Under the pieces are notes generated by a model, which had not been told where the DNA came from, made no database searches, and worked only from the letters and a program-made list of their open reading frames with translations. From Acanthamoeba castellanii str. Neff (lineage: Eukaryota > Discosea > Longamoebia > Acanthamoebidae): a stretch of DNA of 36,841 bases. Below are positions 1 to 30,285 of the stretch, piece by piece. Positions within the stretch are counted from its first letter, which is position 1; each line of letters starts with the position of its first letter. The translations under genes were made by a program, and so were the position numbers. The stretch spans positions 63,332 to 100,172 of the forward strand of contig NW_004457323.1 of the NCBI RefSeq assembly GCF_000313135.1, given 5' to 3'.

Positions 1-3000
1 CACCCCTGCAGCAGCAGCGGCAGGAGCTGGAGGGAGCCAGTGCCGCGGCCGAGGGCGCGGGGGCGGCCCTGCGCACCCACTGGACGTTCGCGCCCACGTT
101 CGACGTGCGCGAGATGACTCGGCTGCTCGACCACGACAACCACGACATGCGCCAGCGCTTCAGGGCCTTCGCCAAGCACCCACTCTTCCTCGTCCAGAAC
201 AACATCCCCCTCGACAAAGAGCGGGAGGTCGCCCTCCAACGTACGTACACACATCTTTTCCCACAGAACAACAACACTTGGGTCCAATCCATTTTCTATT
301 CTTGAGAAAATAGACAAGCCCTGAAGCTGGTGGTTGTCGTGGTCGAGCAGCCGGGAATAACAAAGGCCTTGTGGGGGGGGGGCGAGCAGGTCTGCAGCTG
401 ATCTGCGACAGCGACTTCCTCTCCGTGACCGACTTCAGCAGCAACCCCAAGCGCATCTTTGCGGCGCACGAGCTCACGGGCCTCGTCGATGGCTCCACCG
501 CCACCAAGATGACCGTTCAGGTACCGTAGAGAGAGAGAGAGAGAGAGAGAGATCTATATACACAGACACGCCCGTCTCGTCCGCTGGGCAACAAAGGCAC
601 GGCAATTGGTGCCTCCACCCACTCACCCACTACCCACCCACCCAACCACCACCGCAACAGTTCAACCTCTTTGGCGGGACTGTCTTGAAGCTGGGCACCG
701 AGAGGCACCACAAGCTGCTGCTCAAGGGCATCGACTCTCTCAAGGACATCGGATGCTTTGCCCTCACCGAACTCGGTACTTACTACTTACTACTTACCTG
801 CTACTACCTGCTACTGCTGCTGCTGCTGCTACTGCTGCTACTCTATCCGCCTTCACCACTTCAGCCCCCCCCCGCGACCGTGTGGCCCGTCAGCTCTAAC
901 GTGGTCCCCTACCGCACACCTGTTCTTGCTTCTTGCTTCGCCCTTTGCGGTGCAGGGTACGGCAACAACGCCGTGGAAATGAGGACCACCGGTACCGCAC
1001 CCCCCCCCCCTCTTCTCCCTCCTTTTGTTAAGGCACCGGCACCACCCATGCCTTCCGCCTGTTCGAGGTGTCGTGCCTGCCACTGTGCGCGCACGTGTTA
1101 TGTAGTACTACATTAGTACTAATGATTACTATTTCTACTATTTCTATTTCATGATCGTCATCGTTTCCTGCACGACGACCAGCCGAGTACGACGCAGCGA
1201 CGGACGAGTTCATCATCAACACGCCCTCCGTGCTGGCGCAGAAGTACTGGATCACCAACTCGGCCATCCACGCCAAGTGGGCGGTCGTGTTCGCGCGCCT
1301 CCTCATCCACGGCCAGGACTACGGCGTGCACGCCTTCCTCACCCGCATCCGCAACGACGACCACTCCGTGTGCAAGTACGACACCTCGCTCGCGCTGCTA
1401 TACCCCCCCTCCCTTCCACCCACCCACCTCATTTCGCCGGCCCGTTGCGCCCAGGGGTGTGCGGGTGGAGGACATGGGCCGCAAGATGGGCATGAACGGT
1501 GTCGACAACGGCAAGCTCTGGTTCGACCACGTGCGCGTTCCGCGGCTCAACCTCCTCGACGCCCACTCGCAGGTGGCCAAGGGCGGCGCCTTCACCTCCT
1601 CCATCAAGAGCGCGCGCGGCCGCTTCCTCACCGTGGCCGACCAGCTCCTGGTACCACACACACACACACACACACTTCTCTCCCCTCCACGCACACGCAC
1701 ACGCACACGCACACGCACCCCTGCCCTCTATCCCTTTCCGTTTTACGCACCAGACTCGCTCATCCCTGGATCTCTCTCTCTCTGTGTGTGTGTGTGTCGC
1801 TGTGTTTCTCGCGCGTGGGCGTAGAGCGGGCGCATTTGTATCGCGTCGATGCTGATCGGGGGCTCCAAGACCTCCCTCCTCATTGCCATCCGCTACGCCT
1901 CCTCCCGCCTGGCCGTGGGTCCCACCGGCAAGAGGTGCACGTCTCCTCCTCTGCTACGAGTACGCGTGTCGTGCGTGCCGTGTGCGGCATTCGCACACCA
2001 CCGATCACGCTCACACTCACGCGTGTTGATGATGATGATGCGTCGTGTGTGTCGTGTGTCGTGTGTGTGTCGCGTGTTTCCGTTCAGTGATACGCCCATT
2101 CTGGCCTACCAGCTGCAGCAGCGCGCGCTGATGCCCCTGCTGGCCACCACCTACGCCTTCAACTTTGGGCTGGACTACGTGAAGGACTACTTTGAGCGCA
2201 CCACCGTGGGCGACCTCAAGGGCGACGCCATGGCGTCCAAGTGGCTCGTCATCCTCTGCTGCGCCCTCAAGCCCGTCGTGACGTGGAACGCCAATGAGGT
2301 CAGCCTCGTCTGCCGCGAGCGCTGCGGAGGACAGGGTATGCCCTCACCCCCTCCCTCACCCCCCTACCGCAACAACTCCCGCCCCGCCCCGCCCCGCCCC
2401 AATCCAACGATACCGATGGTCTCCCTGCGCCTTCCCCGCCCCTCAGGCTATCTGGCGTGCAACCGGTTCTCCGACGCCGTGGGAGGCGCGCACGCCGGCA
2501 TGACGGCAGAGGGCGACAACGCGGTCCTCATGCAGAAGGTGGCCAAGGAGCTCCTCGACATGCTCCGCGCCGGACAGGTCAACCCTCGCTCCCGCGACGA
2601 CTCCATCAAGCAGGTACACCCCCCCCCAACCCTTTGGCAGCGTGCGGTGCGTCGTCATGCGTCGTTCCTCACCGCCGCCGCAGGACCTGAGGAGCCTGGA
2701 GTACCTGGGCTACCTGTTCGACCTCCGCTTTGGGCAGCGCCTGCTGGGCCTGGCCACCTCTCTGCAGCGCCAGCTGGGCGCGGGCCAGCCCCTGTTCGAC
2801 GTGTGGATGAAGCAGGAGAGCGACGCCATCCAGGCCACCGCCAAGGCCTACGCCGAGCACGGTACGACCTGCCCCCCCCTCGCTTTGCTTCCCCACCCGC
2901 CTGCAATCTCTCTCTCTCTCTCTTGCCCCCCTCCCTCCCGAGTACGCTGGTGGTGGTGGTGGTGGTGGTGGTGGTGGTGGTGGTGGTGGTGGTGGTGGTG

Positions 3001-3568
3001 GTGGTGGTGGCTGTGTGGTACGGGGGATGTACGCTATTTACGTCGTCGTTGTCGTCGTTGGCACTCTGCGTGTGGCCCATGCAGTGACCATCGGCCGGTT
3101 TGGCAAGAACGTGGGCAGCAGCGGGCCGGCGCTGCAGCCCATCCTGGCGGACCTGTACCGCCTGTACGCCCTCACCAGCATCGAGAAGGACCTGCCCTGG
3201 TTCCTCTGCCACGGCATCCTCACCATCGGCCAAGGTACCGGGCTCACTTGCGTGGCGTCATCGTCATCATCATCATCATCCACGTCACCGTCATCATGGG
3301 CGATGATTCTAAGCACCTGTGCGCACGCTCTCGCGGCTCCTCCTCGTCGTCGTGGTCGTGGTCGTGGTCGTGCGCAGGGAGGGAGGTGGGCGACGCCGTG
3401 CGTGCCCTGTGCTCGGCCCTGGCGCCCCAGGCGCTCCACCTGACCGACGCCTTTGGCATCCCCGACTACGTGGTGCAGGCGCCCATCGCCCTCGACTGGC
3501 AAAAGTACAACCTCGTCGACAACAAGGGCGAGTGCGTGGACTACCTCAAGGAGGAGTTCCGCCTCTGA
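1..3568 (+). CDS. ACOX: Acyl-CoA oxidase, 5' partial
   Basis: FAD enzyme of peroxisomal beta-oxidation: it oxidises acyl-CoA to trans-2-enoyl-CoA and passes electrons to O2, giving H2O2. Twelve exons fit: <1-240, 390-520, 661-775, 956-991, 1183-1375, 1455-1650, 1825-1934, 2088-2335, 2447-2613, 2684-2861, 3085-3234, 3378-3568. They give 650 residues, open to the left edge, so the true start lies outside. Seen: CFALTEL followed by [12 protein letters not shown] (flavin/substrate region of the acyl-CoA dehydrogenase fold), [19 protein letters not shown], and [12 protein letters not shown] followed by [11 protein letters not shown], whose Glu matches the family's catalytic base. The length suits a nearly complete oxidase. 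The C-terminus is EEFRL, which is not a canonical PTS1 (SKL-like), so import may use an N-terminal signal outside the window or a partner. Several introns carry C-tracts just after GTAC donors. Family assignment is firm; chain-length preference cannot be read. Confidence 0.93.
2948..3010. repeat. (TGG)21 microsatellite in an ACOX intron
   Basis: An uninterrupted run of TGG triplets lies in the 2862-3084 intron of the acyl-CoA oxidase gene. The sense strand of the intron is therefore G-rich upstream of its acceptor, and the same intron has a C-run just after its donor. Confidence 0.95.
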
Positions 3569-3937: not shown

Positions 3938-6900
3938 TTATCCCCAGGAGAGAGGAGGAGAGGGGGAGGTACCGACGGTACCGACGGCAGAGGGCACGCG
4001 CCGATGGCCGCGCAGGAGGTTGGGGAGGTGGGCCAGGGCGGCGTTCACTTCGTCCACCCACGAGGCCTTCTCCTCCTCGCTTCCCGCCTGCAGCGTGAGC
4101 TTGTCCTGGCCCGCCTCGCGTCCCACCACCGAGAAGCCGAATGGCACTGCCCCAGCAACAAACAAACCTGACAGTCAGCCGCAAAGAAGTAGAACACACA
4201 CACACACACACAACCACCACCACCAGGCACAGGAGCTAAATAAATAAATAAATAAATCAATGTACCAGACTTTTCGTCCCACACGAGGAGGCCGGCGAGG
4301 GGGATCTTGGGGCTCTTGGGGGTGTAGACGGCGGCGGGGTCCTTGCCCTTCTTGACGGCGAGTACGATGATGTCGTTGAAGAGGATCACGGTGCAGTTCT
4401 TGATGGACGCGCTGCCGTAGGTGACCTTCACAAAAACGCCCTCCCGGATGAACTTCCTCGTGGCCTCCACCAGTTTGAGCGCCTGCACGTGCGCGCGCGT
4501 GAGCCGTGGGACTTGGCCGCAGCCGCAGCAGCCGAAGGGTGGGGGGGGGCGTACGGGCTGTTCCTTGGTGTCGAGGAACTGGCGCTGGAGGAGGAGGAGC
4601 TTGTTGAGGTTGTCGTTGCGCTGCTTCTGGTTGTTGATGGTGGTCACCACCTCGTGCAGGCCGTCGAGGCACTTGCGCAGGTTGGCGTAGTCAGGATGGG
4701 TCTCGGGCGTGTGCTTGAGGAGCTGCTGGAAGAACAGCGGATACCGCGTCAGTCGCTGCATGGGCTTGATGAGGAAGCTCTCCAGATCGAGCCGGTTGAT
4801 GTCCGGCAGGTCCCGCATCTCCTCCAGCAGCTGGTGCAGCTCCGGCTTGGCATCCTTGAGCTCCTTCAGACGCGTACCGGCCTGCGTCTGGTTGGAGCAG
4901 TACTGCGTGTAGAGCCGCAAGTACTCGATCTGCGCGGCACCACACACGACACACGACACACGACACACGCAACACGTGCGTACACACGACACACGACACA
5001 CGACACACGACACACGACACACGACACACGACACACGACACACGACACACGACACACGACACACGACACACGACACACACGACACACGACACATGACACA
5101 CGACACACGACACACGTGGGCGTAAGTAGTCTCGCGGTGGCCGGCAGAGCCGAGCCGCGCGTCGTGTCGTGTCGTCGTGTGGTGTGGTATCGTGTCGTGT
5201 CGTGTCGTGTCGTGTGTACGCACGAAGGAGAGGAATCGTTCGCCGACGTTGGAATGCTCGGTGGGCAGCCTGTCGAGCCCCTCCATGGAGTCAAACAGGG
5301 TGCGGTTGAGGTTCCGGATCTGGTCCACGTTGGAGAAGATCGCCGCGATGTCCGGCCCCTCCACCAGCCCGTTCTCCCTCAGCCTCCGCATGTACTGCTA
5401 CTCTCCCCGCACACGCACACGCACACGCACACGCACGCGAGCGTTGGCGAGATGAGCGGGTCTGGAGAAGGAGGAGGAGGAGGGGGTAATCATGGTGCGG
5501 CATACCTCGACGATGATTTCGAGGTCCTTGACGTACTTCTTCTCTGTCTTGACGAGCTCCTTGACGACCTCCTCGCGCATGTCGACCTTCCTGCGTTCGC
5601 CGCTGCCCGCGTGGTCGATGCCGCTCCCGTCAATCTCCCCGCCTGACTTGCGGGCGCGGCCGACGTCGTCCTCCTCGGCCTCGGCCTCCGGGTCCTCCTC
5701 CTCCTCGTCGTCCCCATCACCGCCGCCGCTGCCGCGGAGGAGGTCCTCGCGGCTGCCGCCCTTGCCCCCGGCGCCCCCCGGCTTGGCGTCGAACGAGACC
5801 GCCCGCGAAAGCGTGCGCTGGTCCCCGTCCTCCGACGATGACGGCGGCCGGTCATTGCGCACGATCGATATCTCCTCCTTCTTCGGCGTCTTCACCCTGC
5901 CACCGTTGGTCATTGGTCGTTAGTGTCATGCGTGTGGTGTGGTATCGTGTCGTGTCGTGTCGTTGGTCGTGTCGTTGGTCGTGTCGTGTGTGCGAATCGA
6001 TTCAAGTGGGGCGCCAAGTTAGGGTGGTGGTACCGGAGGGACTTCTTGGCGTTCTTGGCGGCCTTGAGGAGGCCGGAGTCGTCGCGGGAGGAGTCCTTGT
6101 CCTTGTCCTTGTTGGGTGGGCCCTTCTTGGCCTGCTGCTCCCGCTCCCGCTGCTCTCGCTCCTCGCGGAGCTCCTTGGCCTTCTCGCTCTGGAAGTCGAA
6201 CTTCTTGAGGTTGCGGGTGATGTCCTGCCAGCTCTTCTTCTTCTCGAGCCGCGCCATCATCGTGCGGGGCGACAACAACAACTGCTGCTGGACTGCCGGC
6301 TGCTCCCTCTCGTCCTCCTCGTCCTCCTCGTCCTCTTCATCTTCATCTTCGTCCTCTTCATCGTCGTCGTTGTTGTCGGGCTGCTGCTGCTCCCGGCCCC
6401 GCCTGGCCGAGATGTCGTCGCGATTGACGAGCTCGACGGCCGGTCCCTCCATGAGCACCGACCACCGGATTTTGTCGAGCCTCTTCACCGCGCCCCGCCT
6501 CGCCCCGCCCGCTGCCGCCGCCTTGGCCCCGCGGGCGGCCTCGGCCTCGACATTGGCGCTCTGCTCGCCCTCGCCCGCCCTCGCCCCGCCGGCGGCCGCC
6601 GTAGAGGCGCGCGGGGAGGCCGCGTCCTCGTTTTCGCCGCCCACCACGACCACCACCTTGGCGGCAGCGGCGGCAACGGCGGGATGTCGGCCCGCCGGCC
6701 TGTCCTTGTCCTGCTCTCTCGCGGCTTCCGCCTCTCCGCTGTCGCTGCCGCCGCCGCCGCCGGCGGCTGTCTGGTCGTCTCCAGGGCCGCCGCGCTCGAT
6801 GGCCGTTCCGGTCTTTTCGCTCGAGGCCCGCTTGCCGCCGCTCTCGCCCGTCCGATCCCTCTCACGAATGCCACTTCCTGGGCTACTGCACGATGCACAC

Positions 6901-12430: not shown

Positions 12431-14496
12431 ATCGGCTCTTTCCGAGGAGACTGCGGGAGGGCTTCGCCTGGCGTGCCCCACTTCCTTCAACCAACTCCTG
12501 GCCCGTACGCGCCCCACCCCCTAGTCCCCTTCACGTGGTTGGCGGCCCAACTAACCGGATTTCAATCTCGGACGTGGGGTTACACTGTGGGCGCGTTGTT
12601 GCATTGCAACAGAGGGCGGCACGCTGCCGGGGGTGGTGGCGGGGAGCGTGTTCGCGAACTGGGACGCGCACCAGAACCGCTTGGAGGACCCGGGCCTCGT
12701 GGGCAGCCTGGTGCTGGCCGTGCGGCACTGGGGCTTCACCCCGGAGCACCTCTTCACCGCCTTCCTCGAGGCCTACTACTTCCCGCCTCTCCTCTCCGCG
12801 CCGGCCTCCCGCTCTCTCTACACACCGGCCGCCCCCGCTCTCTTGCCCTTCCGGTACGCCCCCCCCCAACCCACACCGTGTGTGTGTTGTGTGTGTTGTG
12901 TCGTGTGATCGTGCGTGCCATGTCAGCTGATTGAACCATCCGGAATGTGTCCAGGCGGAAGCTGGCGAGCTTCCTGGTGGAGTGGGTGGACGTTGCCTAC
13001 GAGGCCGACTTTAGCGGGCGTGCGCTCGGGCAGAAGCTGAAGGTGCTGGTCAACGAGGTCATGGTACGGCACGGCCTCAAGGACGAGGCCAACGCCGTGC
13101 GCAACCGCATCTGGGCGTCCTCCATCCGCCACCCGCGCTCCCTGACCGCGGCCCTCCGGTTGCGATCCCCGTCCACCGCGGGTGCACCCTCCTCACCGGG
13201 GTACCACCCCGCCGCCGCCACGGTTCAGCCCACGGCCACGACCGCCGTCGCCGCCCCTGGCGCGGAGCGACTGGCCAGAGCCGTGAAAGGCGGCAAGGCC
13301 GAAGTCGCCACTCCCTCGCAGTCCTCGCGGCAGCTCCGACCGCAGGCGTCGGTGCTGGTCCGCACGGCTCCGGCCACTCCGTCGTCGTCGACGTCGCAGC
13401 AGACCCAGGCGCGGATGGGGCGTGTGGCGTCGGAGCGCATGATTGAGCGTATTCCGACCAGCGGCAAGGTGAAGCCCATGAACGTGCTCCAGGTGCGGTC
13501 GCGGGTGATCGCGCAACAGCTGACGCGAATCGACTACGAGCTGCTGGGCAAGGTCGACCTGCGCGAGTTCACCGACATGGCCTTCACCAAGCCCGAGCTC
13601 AGCCCCAACATCAACCTCCTCATCGAGCAGTGCAACAAGATCTCCTACTGGGTGTGCTCGCAGGTGCTCATCCTCAAGAAGTTCAGCCACCAGGTCAAGG
13701 CCCTCCGCAAGTTCATCAACATCGCCTATGTACGTGAGCCGTCTCCCACCCAAAGCAGCAGAGAAGGATATGCAAGCTGATACGATGATATGTATGTCTC
13801 TGTGTGTATGTGTGTGATATATGTGTGTATATATATATATATATATGGGGGGTGGTCGGGTGGGGACGAGTGCAGAAGTGCCTCAAGATGGGCAACTTTG
13901 CGTCGCTGATGGCGCTGTCGCTGGGCCTCAACCTGTCGCCCCTCACGCGGCTGGAGGAGCTGTGGGAGGAGGCCTACCGGGACGGCAAGTGTGCGGCCAA
14001 GATGCGCAAGGTCAACACGTTCCTACCGCTCGTCGGCAACTGCAAGGAGTACCGCGAGGTGCTCGCCAGGCACATGGAGCGCCTGGCCCGCCTCGACGAG
14101 GCCACCCGCAGCGGCGTCGACGCGCCGGCGGCAGCACCACCAGCGTCCCCGCGCCAGCAGCAGCAGAGGGAGGAGCACGAGCCGCCGGCGGAGGAGGCAG
14201 AGGGCGAGGAGCAGCAGGTGCGGTATCCGCTGATCCCGTTCCTGGCGGTCTACATGAAGGACCTCACCTTCATCAACGACGGCAACTCGCACCTCATGCG
14301 CGGCGGCCACCTCAACGTGGACAAGATGCTGCGGTGGGGCCGCATCCTGCGCGAGATCCAGCTGCTCCAGCGCCAGCCCTGCCCCATCGAGGTGGACGAG
14401 CTCGTCCACAACCTCCTCATCAACATCAACTTCATCAGCGAGGAGACCCTCTGGAACATCTCCTCCTCCCTCAAACTCCAGCACTCCCGCGACTGA
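10789..14496 (+). CDS. Ras guanine-nucleotide exchange factor (RasGEF_N + CDC25)
   Basis: Activates Ras-family GTPases by GDP release. Exons 10789-12190, 12292-12504, 12613-12853, 12955-13729, 13876-14496 join in phase to 1,083 residues. The first 530 residues are disordered, rich in Pro, Ser, Ala and Arg, with a polyglutamine run near 493-513. RasGEF_N is about 540-650 (GGTLPGVVAGSVFANWDAH, then HWGFTPEHLFTAFLEAYYFP, then RKLASFLVEWVDVAYEADF). The CDC25 catalytic domain starts near 793 and runs to the C-terminus: LREFTDMAFTK, CNKISYWVCSQVLILKKFSH, KCLKMGNFASLMALSLGLN, and YPLIPFLAVYMKDLTFINDG, a conserved catalytic-core block. A disordered insert of about 40 residues (14098-14220) interrupts the catalytic domain before that block. 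The start is the first ATG of the open exon, after AAAA. It diverges from the RhoGEF. The Ras target is unknown. Confidence 0.93.
12393..12429 (+). repeat. CAG tract encoding polyglutamine in the RasGEF
   Basis: A nearly pure CAG run in the second exon encodes about a dozen consecutive Gln, extended upstream by mixed Gln/Arg codons. Confidence 0.95.
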
Positions 14497-14872
14497 GCCT
14501 GATGTGTCGCTACCCCCCCCCCAAACACGTGCAGCTCTCACACACATTCATAACAAACGTACATACACATATATATTGCATTATTTTGGTCCCGGTGATG
14601 CTGTTCACCCTGTGTGTGCGGTGGTGGTGGTGAGGTGGTGGGGGGGACGTTGTGGGAGGGGGGACGGGTGTGGTTATGGCGGAGGACTCAAAAATCGGTA
14701 ATTACAACTACGCGGGGGGTAGGTCCTCGGCCTCATCGTGAGGACCCTCTGTGCCTCCACACCATCAGCTGGGTGGACCCTCCTGCAGTCTGCGCCTCCA
14801 GTGCCGCGAGTGCACGCCTCTAAGAGTCTTCTCTCTCCGTGTCTCTCTGTCTGCGCTTCTCCCAACGAGTGC
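14497..14872. other. Convergent 3' intergenic region RasGEF / WD40
   Basis: This 376-base gap lies between two converging stops. It holds a C-run just after the RasGEF stop (about 14513-14522), an AT-rich patch near 14570, and a G-rich patch 14613-14672. No AATAAA, ORF or RNA gene could be supported. Confidence 0.65.
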
Positions 14873-15988
14873 TCAGGCTCTGTGCACACAAGCCGAAGAA
14901 TGAAGCGGTGGTAAGTTGCAGCTTGTTCGCAGTGGTCGGTTGGTGGTGGGTGCGTACGGGTATTCGTTGCCGTTGTTGAGGGCGCGACACGTGGCGCTGC
15001 TGCTGCTGCTGTTCCGCATGCCGCGCAGGGCCACCGAAAAGGTCCGCTGCCCGATGGTGTTCCCCGCCAGCTTGCCCAGCGGCGACAACGAGGGCGCACT
15101 CTCCGCCTTCTTGCCGAACGGCGCCGCCCCCGACACCGTGTTGCGCCGCTGCGGCACCGAATCCTCCGCCTCCAGCTCCTATGTTGTACGCCGAACAACA
15201 ACAACAACAGCAACAGCAGCAGCAGCAACAACCAACAACCAACAACCACCAAGACGAAAAAGACAGGAGAGGCATCAGCCACCGTAGGAAACGCGCGGAG
15301 GGTGGGTAAGATGGGGGTAGGTAGGCGTACCTCGCTGAGCGGGTTGTCCGGGTCGGCGTCCGAGTATTCCCACACGCGGATGGTGCCGTCGTCGCCCGCC
15401 GAGTAGAGGGTGCCGCCCTTGAAGGAGATGGCGTTCACGCTGCCCTCGTGGCCCCGCAGCACGTTCATGCACTGGCCCAGCTTGATGCTCCACTCCCGGA
15501 TGGTGCCGTCGGCGGAAGCCGTAAACAGGCGGTCGCCGTACATCTTGAAGACCCGGATACGCGCCGAATGGCCCTCAAAGACATTCACGCTGGCCTTCGT
15601 GTCAGCACCAGCCACAACAACCACAACATCCATCACAACAACCATCACAATCACAATCACAACCACAACCACCACACCCAATTTAACATCATTGTCGGAT
15701 GGAGCATGTACAATTTGCCGGACTGGAGGGAGATCATCTTGAGGCTGTCGTCGGCGAGGCCCGCCTTCTCGGAGTTGATGCCGAAGAGGTGGTTGCCCTT
15801 GATCTTGAAGGACGTGAGGGACGTCTCCACGTTCATGACCTGTATGCATTCGCCCTTCTTGGGGTTCCACACCCGGACCGTCTTGTCGCGCGATGACGAG
15901 TAGAGGAGGCCGTTGTAGGTGCGGCAGCAGTACACCCACGCCGTGTGGCCCTTGAACGTCTTCAAGCACTTACCCAGCTGCTCAGAGG

Positions 15989-20643: not shown

Positions 20644-20785
20644 GGTGAGTGATGTGATTATGTTTGTTCGTGTGGCGTTGTTCAACTCTCGTTATTGCAT
20701 GCCACGCATTCCGACGGCACAAAGGGAAAAGGCCAGGAAAAAGAGAAAACCGGCAGTAGCCGGCAAATCGATCTTACACACCGCA
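20644..20785. promoter_or_regulatory. Compact bidirectional promoter, coronin / ZCCHC10-like
   Basis: Only 142 bases separate the divergent start codons at 20643 (minus) and 20786 (plus). Both genes begin with tiny coding exons (19 and 9 bases). No TATA box or named site is evident. Confidence 0.6.
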
Positions 20786-22352
20786 ATGGGAGACGTACGT
20801 GGATTGGCGCTGTGTAGTGAAGGCTTGGCACTGTACTAACGTCTCTTCTGGGCAGCGCGGAGCACCTGGATCGGGAGGACCCAGTAAATGGGCTCTCCGA
20901 AAGGAGGCCAAGCGCCAGATGTACGCCCTCAGCACGGAGAAGGCGCCCACGATCCGCCCCCTGGGTGTCCGGTATCCCCACCTCCCCAATCTTTTCATTT
21001 GCGGGCGCAACGCGCACATCTTTTCACGGCAGAACCTCACTGCCGCTGGGTTATCTTCACGTGTTGATCGCAGAGGCAAGTCGCGCGCGCCGGCCAACTA
21101 CCAGTGCCAGAAGTGCCTCAACTACGGGCACTACACCTACGAGTGTTCGGGCTCGGCTGTGTACATGAAGCGTCCGTCCCGCAGCGAGGTCATTCGCGAC
21201 CCCTCGCTCCACCCTTCCTACACGCTCGACGTCCCGCCTCCCGAGCTGCCCGAGTACGTGTTTCCGCCCTCTTCGCGCCCGTGTGTGTCGTGTGTGTGTG
21301 CGTGCGCGCCATCCAGCCGTCTCACTACGTGGGGTATCGGTTTGTGTGCGATGGTGATGCGCAGCGCCACGAAGCAGATCCAAGCGGAGGTGGCCAAGTG
21401 GAAGGAGGCCAGAGACAAGAAGAAGAGAAAGGAGGAGAGGAAGCACAGGAAGAAGAGGAAGCGCGATGACAGGTACGCAGCGCCCGTTCTCTGCATTTCG
21501 TTCGACGCGTGTTTTTCCCCTTTGTTTTAACAAACATTCTTTTTCGGTGGCGTGTGCAGTTCCTCGTCCGACTCCTCGTCCGATTCATCGTCAGACTCCG
21601 ACAGCAGCAGCGACAGCGACAGCTCGTCCGACTCGTCTGATTCTTCATCGGACTCAGACTCTTCCTCAGATTCGTCGTCCTCGCCCTCGGACTCAAGCGA
21701 TAGGTACCAACGTCCTTACCTCTCCACGCCGGCTCCGTGTGCGTGTGCGGTGAGATGCGTGCGCGTGCGTGCGTGTACGTGGCACAGTGTATGTGTGGCG
21801 TCCCCTTACCAGACTTGGCTTGTGGCGGTGGTGGGCCGGAGCAGCGAGAGCGAGAGCAGCGGAGATGACCGGCGCGCGAAGAAAGCCAAGAGCAGGGATC
21901 ATAAGAAGGACGTCGACAAGGATGACGGCGCCAAGGGCGACAGGCAATCCTCGCGAGGCCGCTCCCACCGCGACGACGACGAGCGCTCGCCCTCCCCCAA
22001 GCGCGCCCGCGAGGCCGAAAACGGGGAAGCCAAGAGAAGCCACCGCGCCAGCCGCGACCGGCGCTCGCGTTCCCGCACCCCTCCGCGTCGCGACGAGGGC
22101 TCCCCCGCGAGAGCTGATTCGAGGGAGCGGGAGCGCGGGCGGGACAGGGACGAGCACCACGACCGCGACCGCGGTGGAAGGGACCGAGGCAGGGAAGACA
22201 CGAGGGACCGGGACAGGTCCGCCCACAGAGGCAGAGACGACCGGGACAGCGAGAGAGGCAGAGAAAGGAGGCGGAGCAGAGAGAGGGAAGACAGAGGCAG
22301 AGAGAGGGACAGAGAGTGGGGGAGGGACGACGACCGTCGCCACAGGCGCTGA
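20786..22352 (+). CDS. ZCCHC10: ZCCHC10-like zinc-knuckle protein with Ser/Asp and RS/RD tail
   Basis: Probable nuclear RNA-associated protein. Exons 20786-20794, 20856-20971, 21074-21253, 21365-21472, 21560-21703, 21845-22352 join to 354 residues. The core is a CCHC knuckle, CQKCLNYGHYTYEC (C-x2-C-x4-H-x4-C), followed by a MKRPSRS stretch, as in animal ZCCHC10 (GHWTYEC then HRPSR). After it come a Lys/Arg-rich helix (KWKEARDKKKRKEER), a Ser/Asp run encoded by 21560-21703, and about 170 residues of RS, RD and RE dipeptides typical of splicing-speckle proteins. The first coding exon is just ATG GGA GAC; its intron has a perfect TACTAAC branch site at 20834. The stop is 123 bases before the TAF8 start. 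The knuckle assignment is strong; a role in splicing is inferred from the tail. Confidence 0.88.
20834..20840 (+). other. Consensus branch-point TACTAAC
   Basis: A perfect yeast-type branch sequence lies 15 bases before the acceptor AG at 20854-20855, in the first intron (20795-20855) of the ZCCHC10-like gene. It supports the choice of the 9-base first exon. Confidence 0.7.
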
Positions 22353-24209: not shown

Positions 24210-27200
24210 TCACAGGGTGTCCGAGCTGCGGGGGCCGCTCGCGGGGAAAGCACCGGACACAGGGCGCGGAGGAACGGCGGGCGGCGCACCGGCAAGAAGA
24301 GGGAACGGGTCTGGTGCCAGACACGCACGCACGCCATTCATTGCACGGGGTGAGGAGCGTTGGTTGGTTGGTTGGTTGTGAGCACCGGTGTAGCAAGGCA
24401 GGAGGCGCGTACCGCTGCTCGGCGCCGACTCGGGCTTGGAGGGGCGGGCGGGCACCGGCGGAGGACGCGACGGGGCCGGGGCCGGCGGTAGATCGGGGAG
24501 GGGCTTCTTCGCGGGCGGCGAAGAGGAAAGGGCGCGAGCGCTCCCGCCCTCCTTGTCGTCGTCGTTGTCATCGTCGTCGTGGTGGTGGAGTGCGACGGGC
24601 AGGGGCTGGGAGAACAGCTGCACGGGCGGCGCCTGCTGCAGCACCTGCAGGTGGGGAAAGGGCGACACGTGCGCCGTGGGCTGCTGCGGGAGAGGAGGCA
24701 GCGGCCCCGACGAGCGTGGTGAAGGTCCCGACGCCGCAGTGTCGCTGGTTGGTGGGGGCGCGGGCAAGGCCGCCGAGGGAGCCGCCGCGGAGGAAGAGGC
24801 TCCGGCGGAGGCGGCGGGGGGCGGAGGCAGCGGGTTGCTGGGGCGCGGGAGGGGCTTGTGCCTGTCGGCGGCCTTTCCGCCCATCACCTCGACGACGGGC
24901 ATCGGGGCGGGCGCCGACGAGAGCTGGCGAGGTCGCGCGGGCAGGACGGGTGCGCTGGTGGACACCTCCCCGCCCTTCTTCAGCATCGGCTCCTTGCCCG
25001 AGGTCTTGTGGCCAGCGCCGCCCTGAGAACGTGTGCCAGGAGAGGCAGTGTTGGCGTCGAGACTCATCGAGCAGGGGGGGGGGCTCACGCACGCGCGCAG
25101 TGCGGCGGTGATTTGGCGTGTGGGGGGGGGTGTACTGGTGGTACGTACCGTTGCGGAGTCGCCGTTGCCGTGGGCGGCCGAGTCTGCGAGGGGCAGCAGC
25201 ATGGTGGTGATCCTCTCCAGGGCCTTCCGATCGGGGTGGTCGGCACCCGTGCAGCCCAGCAGCTCCTGCGCGCAGATCGTGTGAGGCCAACACGACAAAC
25301 ACACGACACACACACACCACACACACGACACACACACACGACACACGACACACGACACACGACACACGACACACGACACACGACACACGACACACGACAC
25401 ACGACACGGACAAGCAATCAATGAATCGAGAGGGGGGGAGGGCGTGTTACCTTGAGGAGGGCGGCGTAGAGGAAGGAGCGGAGGGCGGGCTTGCGCAGGA
25501 TTTCGCTGAGGTCGTCCTCGCCGCTGGCGTCGCGGTCGTTGAGGTAGGCCCCGAATCGGCGGTTGGACTGGCGCAGGCGGGCGATGGTGGCCACGTAGCT
25601 CTCCACCCGCGACGAGAACTCCATCTCTATCGCCACGAACTCCGTCTGCAACACAACACACAACACACAACACGGCACACAACACGGCACACGGCACGAC
25701 ACACACACACAACACGGCACACGGCACACAACACGTACGAGTGTCAGTGACGGACCTCCCAGAAGCGACTGGGGATTGGGGGAATTAGGGAGGGGATCGA
25801 TACGAGCTGTAGGAAGACCTGGACGACGGTGCGCTCGAGGGGCGGAAGGCCGTCCCACTTCTCCAGCTTGGCCTCGAGGTCCTGCCACGATTGCGCGTGT
25901 CGTGTCGTGTCGTGTCGTGGTATTTTATAGCCACGGGGAGGTGAGTGAACTCAGCGCGCGGGGTTGAGGAGGAGAGAAGAGGCATATAATAGATAAATTA
26001 GATAACAGATAAATATGATATTCATATACCTTGACGATCTTGTGGTGGTAGTTGTAGATGACCATGACCCGCCCGAACATTTCGTGCAGCTCCGTGAGCT
26101 CCAGGAACATGTCCTCGCTGTAGAGCTTGATGAAGGGCTGCAGGCTGTCGATGAAGCTGCGCTCCGAATCCAGGATGCTCTGCACCACCGCCTTCCGCCG
26201 ATCTGTACCCGCCCACCCAAACGACCCGTTACAGCCTTGTGTGACCGCCCCTTGGGCTGGTGTGTGTGTGTGTGTGTGTCGTCATGTGTGTCATACCCTC
26301 GACGACGGGCGGGGATCCAGGCGCAGTGGGCTCCTTCGCGTCGCTGCTGGCCGTCGCCTCCGGCACGGCTCCCGTGGTACGCTTCTTGGTCCTGGACGCC
26401 GATGCGATGCGCCGGTTAATCCATGGCCGGCGGCGGGGCCGATGAACTAGGAGGAGGAGGCGGTGTGGTGGTGGTGGTGGTGGTGGTGGTGGTGGTGGTG
26501 TGGGTACCGTGGGATGGTGATGTAGCGTCGGTTGGGCATGACGGTCTTCTCGATGAGGATGTTGGTGAGCTTGTTGAGGATGAGGTTGTTGAGCTTGGGG
26601 AAGTTGCGGATCTGGCGCTTGTCCCCGCCCACCACGCTCTCCAGTCGGATGTCCATCACCGGCACCGAGTAGAAGCTCACCGAGAACCGCTCCGCCGGCC
26701 ACGGCGCGCAATGGATGTGCATCTACCGCCGGTACCACACATCGCACACACGCACGCCGCACACGCACGTCAATGACCACACGAGATTGTGACAAAGCGG
26801 GGTGTGTCGGAACGCACCTTACCGGTGAGGGAGTGGAGGGTGGCGGTGATGCAGAACGGGATGCAGGTCTTCTGGGTGACCCACACGTTGCCGGTGAACT
26901 TGACGAACGCGGGCCTGTCCTCGCCCCGGTAGTCCAGCACCAGGTCGATGCCCTGCACAACACACACACACAACAACAACACACAACACACACATTGTGG
27001 TGAATGTTCGTCCGCATACGCGACGAATGGGGTGTTGGGGTGGCGTTTGGGGGGGGGAGGGTCCTGTACCAATTCACCGGAGCGTCGCTGGGGCAGGATC
27101 TTGATGCCGGACATCTTGGGCACGAAGTCGCCCAGGCTCAGGTCCACCACATCAATCCGCTCCTGCGGGTGGTGTGCGTAAGTTACTTTGCGTTGGCTGC

Positions 27201-28611
27201 GCTGCTGCCAAGCGCGGAGAACGACAGTGAATCGAGCGAAAGAGTGTAAATTTGCGCACCAGGAAGCCGGCGAGCTTCTTTTCGGCGAGCTTGGCCTTCA
27301 TCTTGGTCTCCAGGAACGTTTTGATGACCACCACCAGCTCCTCGGAATTCCTGAAAGGCGGACCCTTGTCAGCCCACCACACAGCGTAGCAAGAGGTGTC
27401 GCGCGCGTGAGTGTGTCGTGTGTGTGTGTGTGTGTGTGTACCTGAAGTTAAACCAGAAGCGCGAGGTGAGAGCATTAATCCATTCGGCACTCTCGATCTT
27501 CAGGAACTCGTTCGCCGTTTCCTCGGCCGTGCTCTCGCCCACCGCAGTAGAGCCCGCCGCAGATTGGCCTGCTGGCGGGGGGTCACTAAATGTGCCGCGT
27601 GTCGTGTGCGCACGTGCGTGCAGAGAGCACGAGGCTTGAAAGTAGGCGATCGCGTACCCGAGGCGTTGCCCTCCGACGCGGCGTTCGTCGCCGTCGTCCC
27701 AACCACAGGCTCGCTAGACCTGCGAGTCAGCAGCCACCACCCCAAATTTGTTTAAAACAATTTAAGACAAGACATAACAAATAACAAAACAACATGAAAT
27801 AAAAAACGATAGAAAAGGGGGGTACGGGAGGCAGGCAGGTGGTACGTGGAGGGAATGGATGACGACGACAACGACGCAGCCGAGGCAGAGGACGAGGTCG
27901 GCCCCGATGACGAGGGCAGCGACGGCATCGAGCGCGGAGAGATGACAGGCGCCGCAGCGCTGCCCTCGAGGCTCCCCTGCACAATTGGTCAGGCGAGGGC
28001 ATCGCACAGCACAGGAGGTGGAGCCAAAAGAGAGAGAAGAGGAAGAGTACCGAAGTGTAGCGGGCGCCAGCCGAAAGGGCGCTGTGCCAGAGCGTGGCGT
28101 ACTCGGCAGTGTCGGCGATCACGTAGATGTGGTCCAGGCCCGCCGTCAGCTCGCTCGCCCTGTGTTCGTCCCACACACGTCAACATATGTATAATTATAA
28201 TAATAATAATAATAATGAGAAAATCAAAGACAAGGGCAGGGTACCTGCGGGAGAGCTTGACGGCGTTCTTGGGCCGCTGGACGATCTCGGCAGTGCACCC
28301 GCGCAGGTCCACCTCCCACCTCTCATTGGCCGCGAAGATCTTCGCAAGAAAAATAGAAGAATAGAAAAATAGTGTTGCGGTTGGTTGATCACGAGCTCTC
28401 CGGAGCGGGCGGGCATTGGGGGGGGGGCTACCTTCTCGGTGTTGTAGGTGGCGAAGACCAGGGATTTGGCCGTGGCGAATCGCTTTTGCACCTGCTTGGG
28501 GTCGTCCTCCCGCTGGATGCGCACCCACCCGTGTGTGCCCTCCGTGGTCACCGTGGGCTGGCCACCACCACCACCAGACACGTGAGAAACCACCGGTGGG
28601 GCTCGGTCACA

Positions 28612-28642
<31 letters not shown>

Positions 28643-30285
28643 GCTTTACCTTGTAGCCGCGCAGTTCCTGGAAGGCGCTCTTCATGCGCTCCTTGCGCGA
28701 CATAAGGCTCGTAGCCGCTTCCAGCGGTCCGCTCTGTGTGCGGGTTGCATCCGACACCAATCCCAGTTGGCGACCAATCAGCAAACCACGCACGACACAC
28801 GACACACGACACACGACACACGGCATGCGCAGGCACAGGTACCCTGCTCTGAGGCTTTTCGGCAATGCTCTCGTACGGCTCGCAGATCTTGAGGAGCGAG
28901 TGGTACCTGCAATGCCGTGGGCGGATTACGACTCGCACCATCAGCCTGAGTGAAAAAAGAATCCAGAAACCTGCGGCTGCTGGGAACGCTGCGCACCATC
29001 TGAGCTGCACGGTCTCGGATTGGGTGATGAGGTAGATGTAGTCGGACTTGTCGGCCACCTTGCGGTTGGTGTGGCTGATCTCCACCGCGTACGTCAACTG
29101 ATGACCATTATTACACCATGCATGCCACGCACCAAACACCACCGCCACCACGTGGTGAGCCAAGCCGAGCCAAGCGCAGACAACGACACCAGCAACCACG
29201 CGTGGGAGGGGGGCAAGGGGCACACCTTGTTCTTTTCATCGTCCATGGTGCGCACCAGGCACCCATCGAGTCCGATCACCTCGTACTCATCCAGGGCGTC
29301 TCCCTCCTGGCCACGATGTGCGGCACGCGGCGAGTCATGCGTGATGCGAGTGGAAAACAATAATAATATATAATAATATAATATTATTTTAATAAATAAT
29401 AAAGGCAAATGGGTAAAGGAAAGGGAGGAGGTACGCGCGGGCCGTGGTAGAGGTCGGTGTCGCGCACGAAGGCGTAGCAGGCCTTGCGCGTCTTGCGCTT
29501 GCCCGCCATCTGGAGGCTGATCCACCCGGCCACCAGACAGCCGCCCATCCCGCCCACCTGCCCGCTACCGCCCTCCTCCTCTCCGTCCTCGTGTTCGCCC
29601 TGTCACCGCCCAAACAGAAGACACACACGCACACGCACACACATACGACACACGACACGACACACACGACACACACATGACACACGGGTCTTAGCTACGT
29701 AGAATGGAAGGTGAGAAAGCGATGAGGTGGGGGTTGCGTTTGGTACGTCGATGTCGGCGTGCGGGGTGGAAGGAGACGAGGGGTCGGCGGACGCGAGGGG
29801 CATGGTGGGCGGGCGAGTGCGTGGCGCGTTGACGCCGGGCGTGTACTGCGCGGCCTGTCGCATGAGCTCGGCGTGGTCGCCGTTGATCTGCGCGTCGAGA
29901 GGGGGCGGCTCGAATGGCACGTCGCCCCGCTCTACGGCTTCGCTATACTCCCTGCTCCGTTCCGCCGCTCTACACCGAGTGCACACGACCACGCCATAAA
30001 GCGAAAATAAATGATAAATGATAAATGTTTTGAATTAATAAATACACAATCAATGGTTAATGATTTGAATTGCAAAGAAAGATGAAAAGGATGTCGCTAC
30101 GCCAAAAGCACAAGCCGGGCAACCCGGCAGCGTGGGGTGCGAGGGGGGGGGTACGCATGGCGAGACTGAAGCTGGGACTCTTCGACGCGGCTCAGAAGGT
30201 GTACGCCGACGTAGGCGGCAATAGCGAGGGACACAATAGCGCCCAGCAAAAAGGAGCCGGCCAGCAGCCACAGCAGCCCCAGCAT
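24210..30285 (-). CDS. Membrane-anchored PH-PH-SMP-RhoGEF (DH) fusion protein
   Basis: Combines a lipid-transfer SMP domain with a Rho exchange domain. Exons: 30285-30155, 29969-29747, 29599-29435, 29306-29226, 29097-28997, 28906-28843, 28733-28650, 28557-28432, 28339-28245, 28159-28051, 27976-27846, 27719-27658, 27568-27442, 27350-27260, 27162-27070, 26952-26818, 26722-26508, 26391-26297, 26202-26030, 25881-25804, 25645-25451, 25265-25149, 25022-24413, 24310-24210; 3,402 nt, 1,133 residues, all phases agree. N-terminal membrane helix about 2-29 (LLAGSFLLGAIVSLAIAAYV). PH-like 1 about 130-240 (GWISLQMAGKRKTRKACYAF). PH-like 2 about 290-392 (GWVRIQREDDPKQVQKRF). SMP about 482-678 (ESAEWINALTSRFWFNF to VMPNRRYITIP). 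DH about 711-897 (VQSILDSERSFIDSLQPFIK; LRKPALRSFLYAALLKELLG). Pro-rich tail. No PH follows the DH. Topology and membrane site are inferred from Nvj2/TEX2 relatives. Confidence 0.85.
25290..25409. repeat. (GACACAC)n heptamer satellite in the SMP-RhoGEF gene
   Basis: The same 7-bp unit as at 4941-5117, here in the 25450-25266 intron. In the transcript it reads GTGTGTC and lies just upstream of the acceptor. Shorter copies occur in other introns of this gene (about 28797-28822, 29640-29690). Confidence 0.93.
26466..26501. repeat. (TGG)n microsatellite in the SMP-RhoGEF gene
   Basis: About twelve TGG units on the plus strand lie in the 26507-26392 intron that joins the SMP-coding exon to the linker before the DH domain. 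In the transcript the tract is CCA repeats next to the donor. Confidence 0.93.

Follow-up and report, generated by a model that had tools for sequence, protein, structure and literature searches.

Does a single gene of Acanthamoeba castellanii str. Neff join a lipid-transfer domain of the SMP family to a RhoGEF (DH) domain, and would such a domain still activate Rho GTPases? The question is raised by a stretch of 36,841 nucleotides of contig NW_004457323.1 (assembly GCF_000313135.1, positions 63,332 to 100,172; hereafter the window), in which a sequence-only reading had proposed an in-frame fusion of an Nvj2/TEX2-type SMP protein with a RhoGEF, a Rho guanine nucleotide exchange factor (GEF). 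The coding region lies at 24210..30285 of the window on the minus strand, as do all parts of the gene given below, and encodes a protein of 1,133 aa in 24 exons. We think it fairly probable that this is a membrane-anchored, Nvj2/TEX2-like lipid-transfer protein with a C-terminal pseudo-GEF that serves as a docking arm.

The exons were rebuilt by choosing GT..AG sites by eye with the earlier model known, so the rebuild is not independent of that model. It matched every coordinate given there, the 24 exons, and the total of 3,402 nt including the stop, within a genomic coding span of 6,076 nt. In the rebuilt model exon 17, the last of the SMP domain, ends at 26508, exon 18 (26297..26391) is a short linker between SMP and DH, and exon 19, the first of the DH domain, starts at 26202.

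We searched 5.8 billion proteins with residues 475-900 and obtained three, each listed with MMM1 and RhoGEF domains. P0001 (1,120 aa, on contigs of up to 4,523 nt) is 99% identical over the queried region, P0002 (993 aa, 4,083 nt) is 73% identical, and P0003, from Balamuthia mandrillaris (973 aa, 118-kb contig), is 46% identical over 53% of the region. The search scored only the candidates sharing most words, and absence beyond these lineages does not follow from it; an alignment search with the same candidate scoring and a search with the Balamuthia SMP piece found no further homologous protein. The order SMP-DH, which the sequence-only reading had proposed to look for elsewhere, is kept in all three. 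Since the join is common to the lineage of the window and to Balamuthia, it has been kept over a long time. The three relatives also have a database entry for PF26547, which was not in our local Pfam scan; we left it unnamed. The annotated Balamuthia protein begins just before the second PH domain and bears the name 'ERMES complex subunit mmm1, variant 2'. This gene model may be short at its 5' end and its name misleading; the latter seems to have been carried over from the SMP match.

The independent support for the gene model is, at the level of sequence, P0001. This protein comes from a different strain (over the full alignment 1,069 of 1,139 columns agree, and the tail contains gaps), and it must derive from an intron-free, spliced source because its open frame of 3.36 kb lies on a 4.5-kb contig, against the 6,076 nt spanned by the gene. 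It agrees with the model at 23 of 23 exon joints, among them those of exons 17, 18 and 19 that had been singled out as critical, and the alignment is identical at all 34 residues from 679 to 712, the span that holds exon 18 and the SMP-DH join. With P0001 as the query, the genome (38.4 Mb, 250 contigs; counts are lower bounds) gave at least 24 matches, of which 23 were this gene and one was a weak match in another RhoGEF locus. The Balamuthia SMP piece gave at least one match, again this gene, so that neither query found a second copy of it.

That two neighbouring genes were wrongly joined in reading is thus very improbable. Retention of intron 17 would give a short SMP end with a stop (PRYPHHH...TASSS), which is what such a reading has in its favour. 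Against it, P0001, which must be intron-free, fits every joint, P0002 and Balamuthia show the same SMP-DH order, and the DH part has no usable start of its own nearby. We inspected the frames of exons 18 and 19 for such a start, which the sequence-only reading had named as a way to overturn the fusion. There is no ATG within exon 18, the frame of exon 19 meets a stop 27 codons upstream with no ATG in between, and the first in-frame ATG within exon 19 would drop the first 30 residues of the DH domain. From an ATG at 27017 the frame of exon 18 can be reached without a stop, but this ATG lies within intron 15, and the SMP exons would need another frame. Separate SMP and DH genes are rejected on the evidence of the relatives and of the missing DH start.

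The N-terminal half of the protein has the order of an Nvj2/TEX2-type protein. Exon 1 (30155..30285, residues 1-43) encodes a hydrophobic anchor, with a Kyte-Doolittle 19-residue maximum of 2.35 at residue 4 (the best window starting after residue 45 reaches 1.2); the strongly hydrophobic stretch, about residues 2-31, is aligned in P0001 and P0002. A first PH domain is encoded by exons 3-6 (28843..29599, residues 143-242). The Pfam PH profile gives it 23.3 bits, just under the cut-off of 25.1. P0002 exceeds this cut-off with 37.4 bits and two stretches at E ≤ 1, as does Balamuthia with 33.5 bits; P0001, with 24.3 bits, stays under it. A PH domain before the SMP domain, as expected of the Nvj2/TEX2 type, is therefore predicted in the window protein. 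The second PH-like region (exons 8-10, 28051..28557, residues ~284-392) is the weakest assignment; it is based on the Balamuthia PH domain, which aligns there, and on the two PH stretches of P0002.

The SMP (MMM1) domain is encoded by exons 13-17 (26508..27568, residues ~479-678). In the spliced protein PF10296 scores 37.0 bits (cut-off 21.9) in two stretches, the better one at 481-556. The closest solved sequence is Mmm1 (5yk6), matched at E 0.0042 by the window piece, 0.001 by P0002 and 3.1e-10 by Balamuthia, and the Foldseek matches of the SMP region are 5yk6 and 5yk7. When the last SMP exon and the DH exons were scanned together, RhoGEF scored 76.7 bits and MMM1 19.8 bits, just under its cut-off. 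SMP and RhoGEF are thus both over their cut-offs in one spliced protein, as had been predicted. The predicted order of membrane helix, PH-like domain, SMP, DH and proline-rich tail holds in frame, the second PH-like region being its weakest item; the putative Nvj2/TEX2 label fits the order anchor, PH, SMP. None of the profiles PF10296, PF17047 and PF23065 had a match in the genome; as exons were searched one at a time and PF10296 failed to find even this gene, that result is uninformative on the absence of other SMP proteins.

The DH-fold domain (exons 19-22, 25149..26202, residues ~710-897) is matched by the Pfam RhoGEF profile at residues 715-880 of the spliced protein with 73.2 bits (cut-off 27.6), and its closest solved structures by sequence are ECT2, Tiam1 and kalirin. 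Foldseek and VIA-align support the fold in the predicted model of P0001, which we used for the DH fold alone. The best Foldseek match was the DH domain of Bcr, which in VIA-align, where the rows cover the DH region only, came second, tied with the first. The domain has the fold of a Dbl-family RhoGEF.

In alignments with Tiam1, kalirin and ECT2, the position of the glutamate of conserved region 1 (CR1) is held by Ser718 (codon 26177..26179, counted from the start of exon 19); P0001 and P0002 also have Ser and Balamuthia has Thr. This change is not a sequencing error, because it is common to all relatives found. The motif of conserved region 3 (CR3), P-x-Q-R-x-x-K/R-Y, which reads P-x-Q-R-x-x-K-Y in Tiam1 and kalirin, is P-A-L-R-S-F-L-Y in the window protein, where Leu852 (codon 25469..25471, counted from exon 21) holds the position of the Lys/Arg before Tyr; it is A-A-L-R-S-F-F-Y in P0002 and P-L-S-H-M-R-L-Y in Balamuthia. 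Compared with Balamuthia, helix 1 is identical at 14 of 31 residues, and helices 5 and 6 are the least conserved (6/28 and 5/25). We take the corresponding Tiam1 residues to be E1047, K1195 and N1232, with which the residue numbers of the structure entry fit; the position of N1232 appears to be Ala889 in the window protein, in an uncertain register. No Pfam PH stretch was reported after the DH domain in the window protein (E ≤ 10) or in P0001, P0002 and P0003 (E ≤ 1), where only the best stretch per family was placed and the second PH stretch of P0002 has no placement. An active Dbl-family RhoGEF would be expected to have the CR1 Glu, the CR3 P-x-Q-R and Lys/Arg, and a PH domain after the DH domain, none of which we could recognise here. 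According to published work, the glutamate of CR1 and the lysine of CR3 matter for exchange (PMC5727386), and in intersectin the CR1 Glu is crucial for Cdc42 binding and complex formation as well as for exchange (PMC2892021). The replaced residues and the lack of a PH match after the DH domain thus speak against the earlier claim that this domain would activate Rho GTPases.

Other DH domains of the same genome served as controls. A RhoGEF profile search (E ≤ 1) gave at least 197 matches. They are counted by exon, not by gene, and for a genome of 38 Mb they amount to a large Dbl-family set. The CR1 set comprised all listed matches starting at model position 1 or 2 (n = 33), leaving aside listed matches starting at position 4 or later and unlisted ones; among these listed matches the CR1 Glu was kept in 33 of 33. 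For CR3 we scanned loci L001-L030 with the motif's Pro and Tyr as anchors; a match reached CR3 at 23 of the 30, and P-x-Q-R was kept at 22 of these 23 (the exception is L025). The changes are therefore special to the window protein and not a habit of the species.

The proline-rich tail (exons 23-24, 24210..25022) carries PxxPx[RK] motifs at residues 922, 1085, 1088 and 1111. Such motifs bind SH3 domains. The last of them, PAVPPR, is also found in P0001 and P0002, and not in Balamuthia.

These data suggest the following mechanism. The N-terminal helix would anchor the protein, probably in the endoplasmic reticulum (ER), the PH-like domains would probably recognise phosphoinositides of the opposite membrane, and lipid transport between the two membranes would fall to the SMP domain. 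The DH domain appears to keep its fold and to have lost the residues needed for normal nucleotide exchange. Together with the tail it would most likely dock weakly to Rho-family GTPases, or to actin or endocytic SH3 proteins, and this docking arm may link the contact site to the cell cortex. With the catalytic residues lost, the obvious idea of a contact site that activates Rho gives way to that of a contact site that would listen to Rho or SH3 proteins, or dock on them. Worm endosomes are kept free of phosphatidylinositol 4,5-bisphosphate (PI(4,5)P2) by the SMP proteins PDZD-8 and TEX-2, and when these are lost actomyosin is drawn to the endosomes (PMC8523718), which gives the link from SMP proteins to the actin cortex some footing.

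Several observations weigh against this docking view. The DH domain is still recognised at 73 bits with its fold retained, so some GTPase binding or exchange may persist. ECT2, whose CR3 reads P-V-Q-R-L-P-S-V, has neither the Lys nor the Tyr, and within the genome the Lys/Arg before Tyr was kept at only 20 of the 23 loci (exceptions L004, L013 and L025). Both predicted models, of P0001 and of Balamuthia, are of low confidence (mean predicted local distance difference test scores, pLDDT, of 37.0 and 40.8). Structure prediction, which the sequence-only reading had suggested, recovered the DH fold in the P0001 model, but with the Balamuthia model no fold was matched significantly, the best hit being p115-RhoGEF (E 0.17). 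The annotated Balamuthia protein, moreover, has no N-terminal anchor, first PH domain or proline-rich tail.

Direct activation of Rho by the DH domain seems less likely. It would require a working RhoGEF kept at ER contact sites, so that the transfer of lipid or the forming of a contact turns on Rho/Rac and actin locally, and we regard this as unlikely: a clear DH match and fold, an 'SE' in CR1 that is kept in all three lineages, a tail with SH3-type motifs, and the evidence from ECT2 that the CR3 Lys is not universal are set against replacement of the CR1 Glu and of the CR3 Gln and Lys/Arg positions, the lack of a PH match after the DH domain, and the poor conservation of CR3 and helix 6 to Balamuthia. 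Somewhat more doubtful is a pseudo-GEF that acts as a Rho sensor, binding Rho/Rac without exchange and gating PH tethering or SMP lipid flow; if this were true, cortical Rho signalling would steer lipid supply in amoebae.

The DH part could also be a decaying leftover of an old fusion, now without function, and the rates of change bear on this. The DH domain changes faster than the SMP domain (125/187 identical residues to P0002, against 172/198 for SMP), which also fits a pseudo-GEF, and it is more eroded in Balamuthia, where it follows a long Ser/Pro-rich linker after the SMP domain and scores 30.6 bits, near the RhoGEF cut-off of 27.6. The Balamuthia model without a significant DH match fits such decay as well. 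Yet the DH domain stays in frame, without a stop, in each of the three lineages, it aligns without gaps to P0001 (182/185 identical) and to P0002 (119/185), and its fold is kept in the P0001 model, which makes a functionless remnant rather improbable. Our preferred reading remains a lipid-transfer protein with a pseudo-GEF docking arm.

Elsewhere in the window, some 19 kb separate the pseudo-DH gene from a canonical RhoGEF domain (4633-5568, minus strand; open reading frame 4048-5397). The latter scores 122 bits for its second half, with the CR1 Glu and P-x-Q-R intact. A RasGEF domain (12935-14493, plus strand) is divided between two open frames, which score 58.7 and 68.1 bits; this brings the genes of GEF type in the window to three. 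Also above their Pfam cut-offs were WD40 repeats (14677-15969, minus), an acyl-CoA oxidase C-alpha1 domain (1825-3084, plus) and a CCHC zinc knuckle (20760-21527, plus). An Rfam scan of the window gave no match.

How does this protein compare with known systems? Database domain lists already show SMP and DH together; the combination is therefore not unseen, but within the scope of our search it has not been discussed. In the open-licence papers that we searched, pairing SMP with RhoGEF or DH terms, we found no description of an SMP protein with a DH domain, in agreement with the sequence-only reading. A paper that uses both 'SMP domain' and 'DH domain' treats PDZD8 and VPS13C separately (PMC9303930), and according to another, Entamoeba has no SMP proteins at all (PMC6156432).

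STARD8/12/13 (the DLC family) resemble the window protein in that one chain combines lipid transfer with Rho regulation, with START in place of SMP and RhoGAP in place of DH (PMC6156432). Joins of lipid transfer and Rho regulation were thus known before, as START with RhoGAP, and what our literature search did not find is SMP with DH. To our knowledge, STARD8/12/13 have no membrane anchor. Dbl, Dbs and Trio also have a lipid-binding domain and a DH domain in one protein, arranged as Sec14-DH-PH; unlike the window protein, they have a Sec14/CRAL-TRIO fold, not SMP, and a DH-PH tandem. VPS13C is a lipid transporter with a helical bundle, formerly termed DH-L for its distant similarity to DH domains, but it is a bridge-like transporter, not an SMP protein, and its bundle is followed by a PH domain and likened to ATG2_C (PMC9303930). 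The DH domain of the window protein, unlike this bundle, has a Pfam RhoGEF match at 73 bits. The DH domain of Bcr keeps the fold with catalytic residues lost; it showed no GEF activity and is grouped in PMC5727386 with six other Dbl-family 'pseudo-GEFs' without key residues. It is a precedent for a DH domain converted to a binding module, although in Bcr a PH domain follows the DH domain and there is no lipid-transfer domain. Mmm1 of ERMES shares the SMP domain and is the closest solved sequence. We know of no PH or DH domain in Mmm1; the window protein has both and does not qualify as an ERMES Mmm1. A published listing places TEX2 (HT008) at the ER and gives it a PH domain, an SMP domain and two N-terminal helices (PMC9692390). 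The Nvj2/TEX2 type shares with the window protein an N-terminal membrane anchor, PH and SMP, to which the window protein adds a second PH-like region, a C-terminal DH fold and a proline-rich tail.

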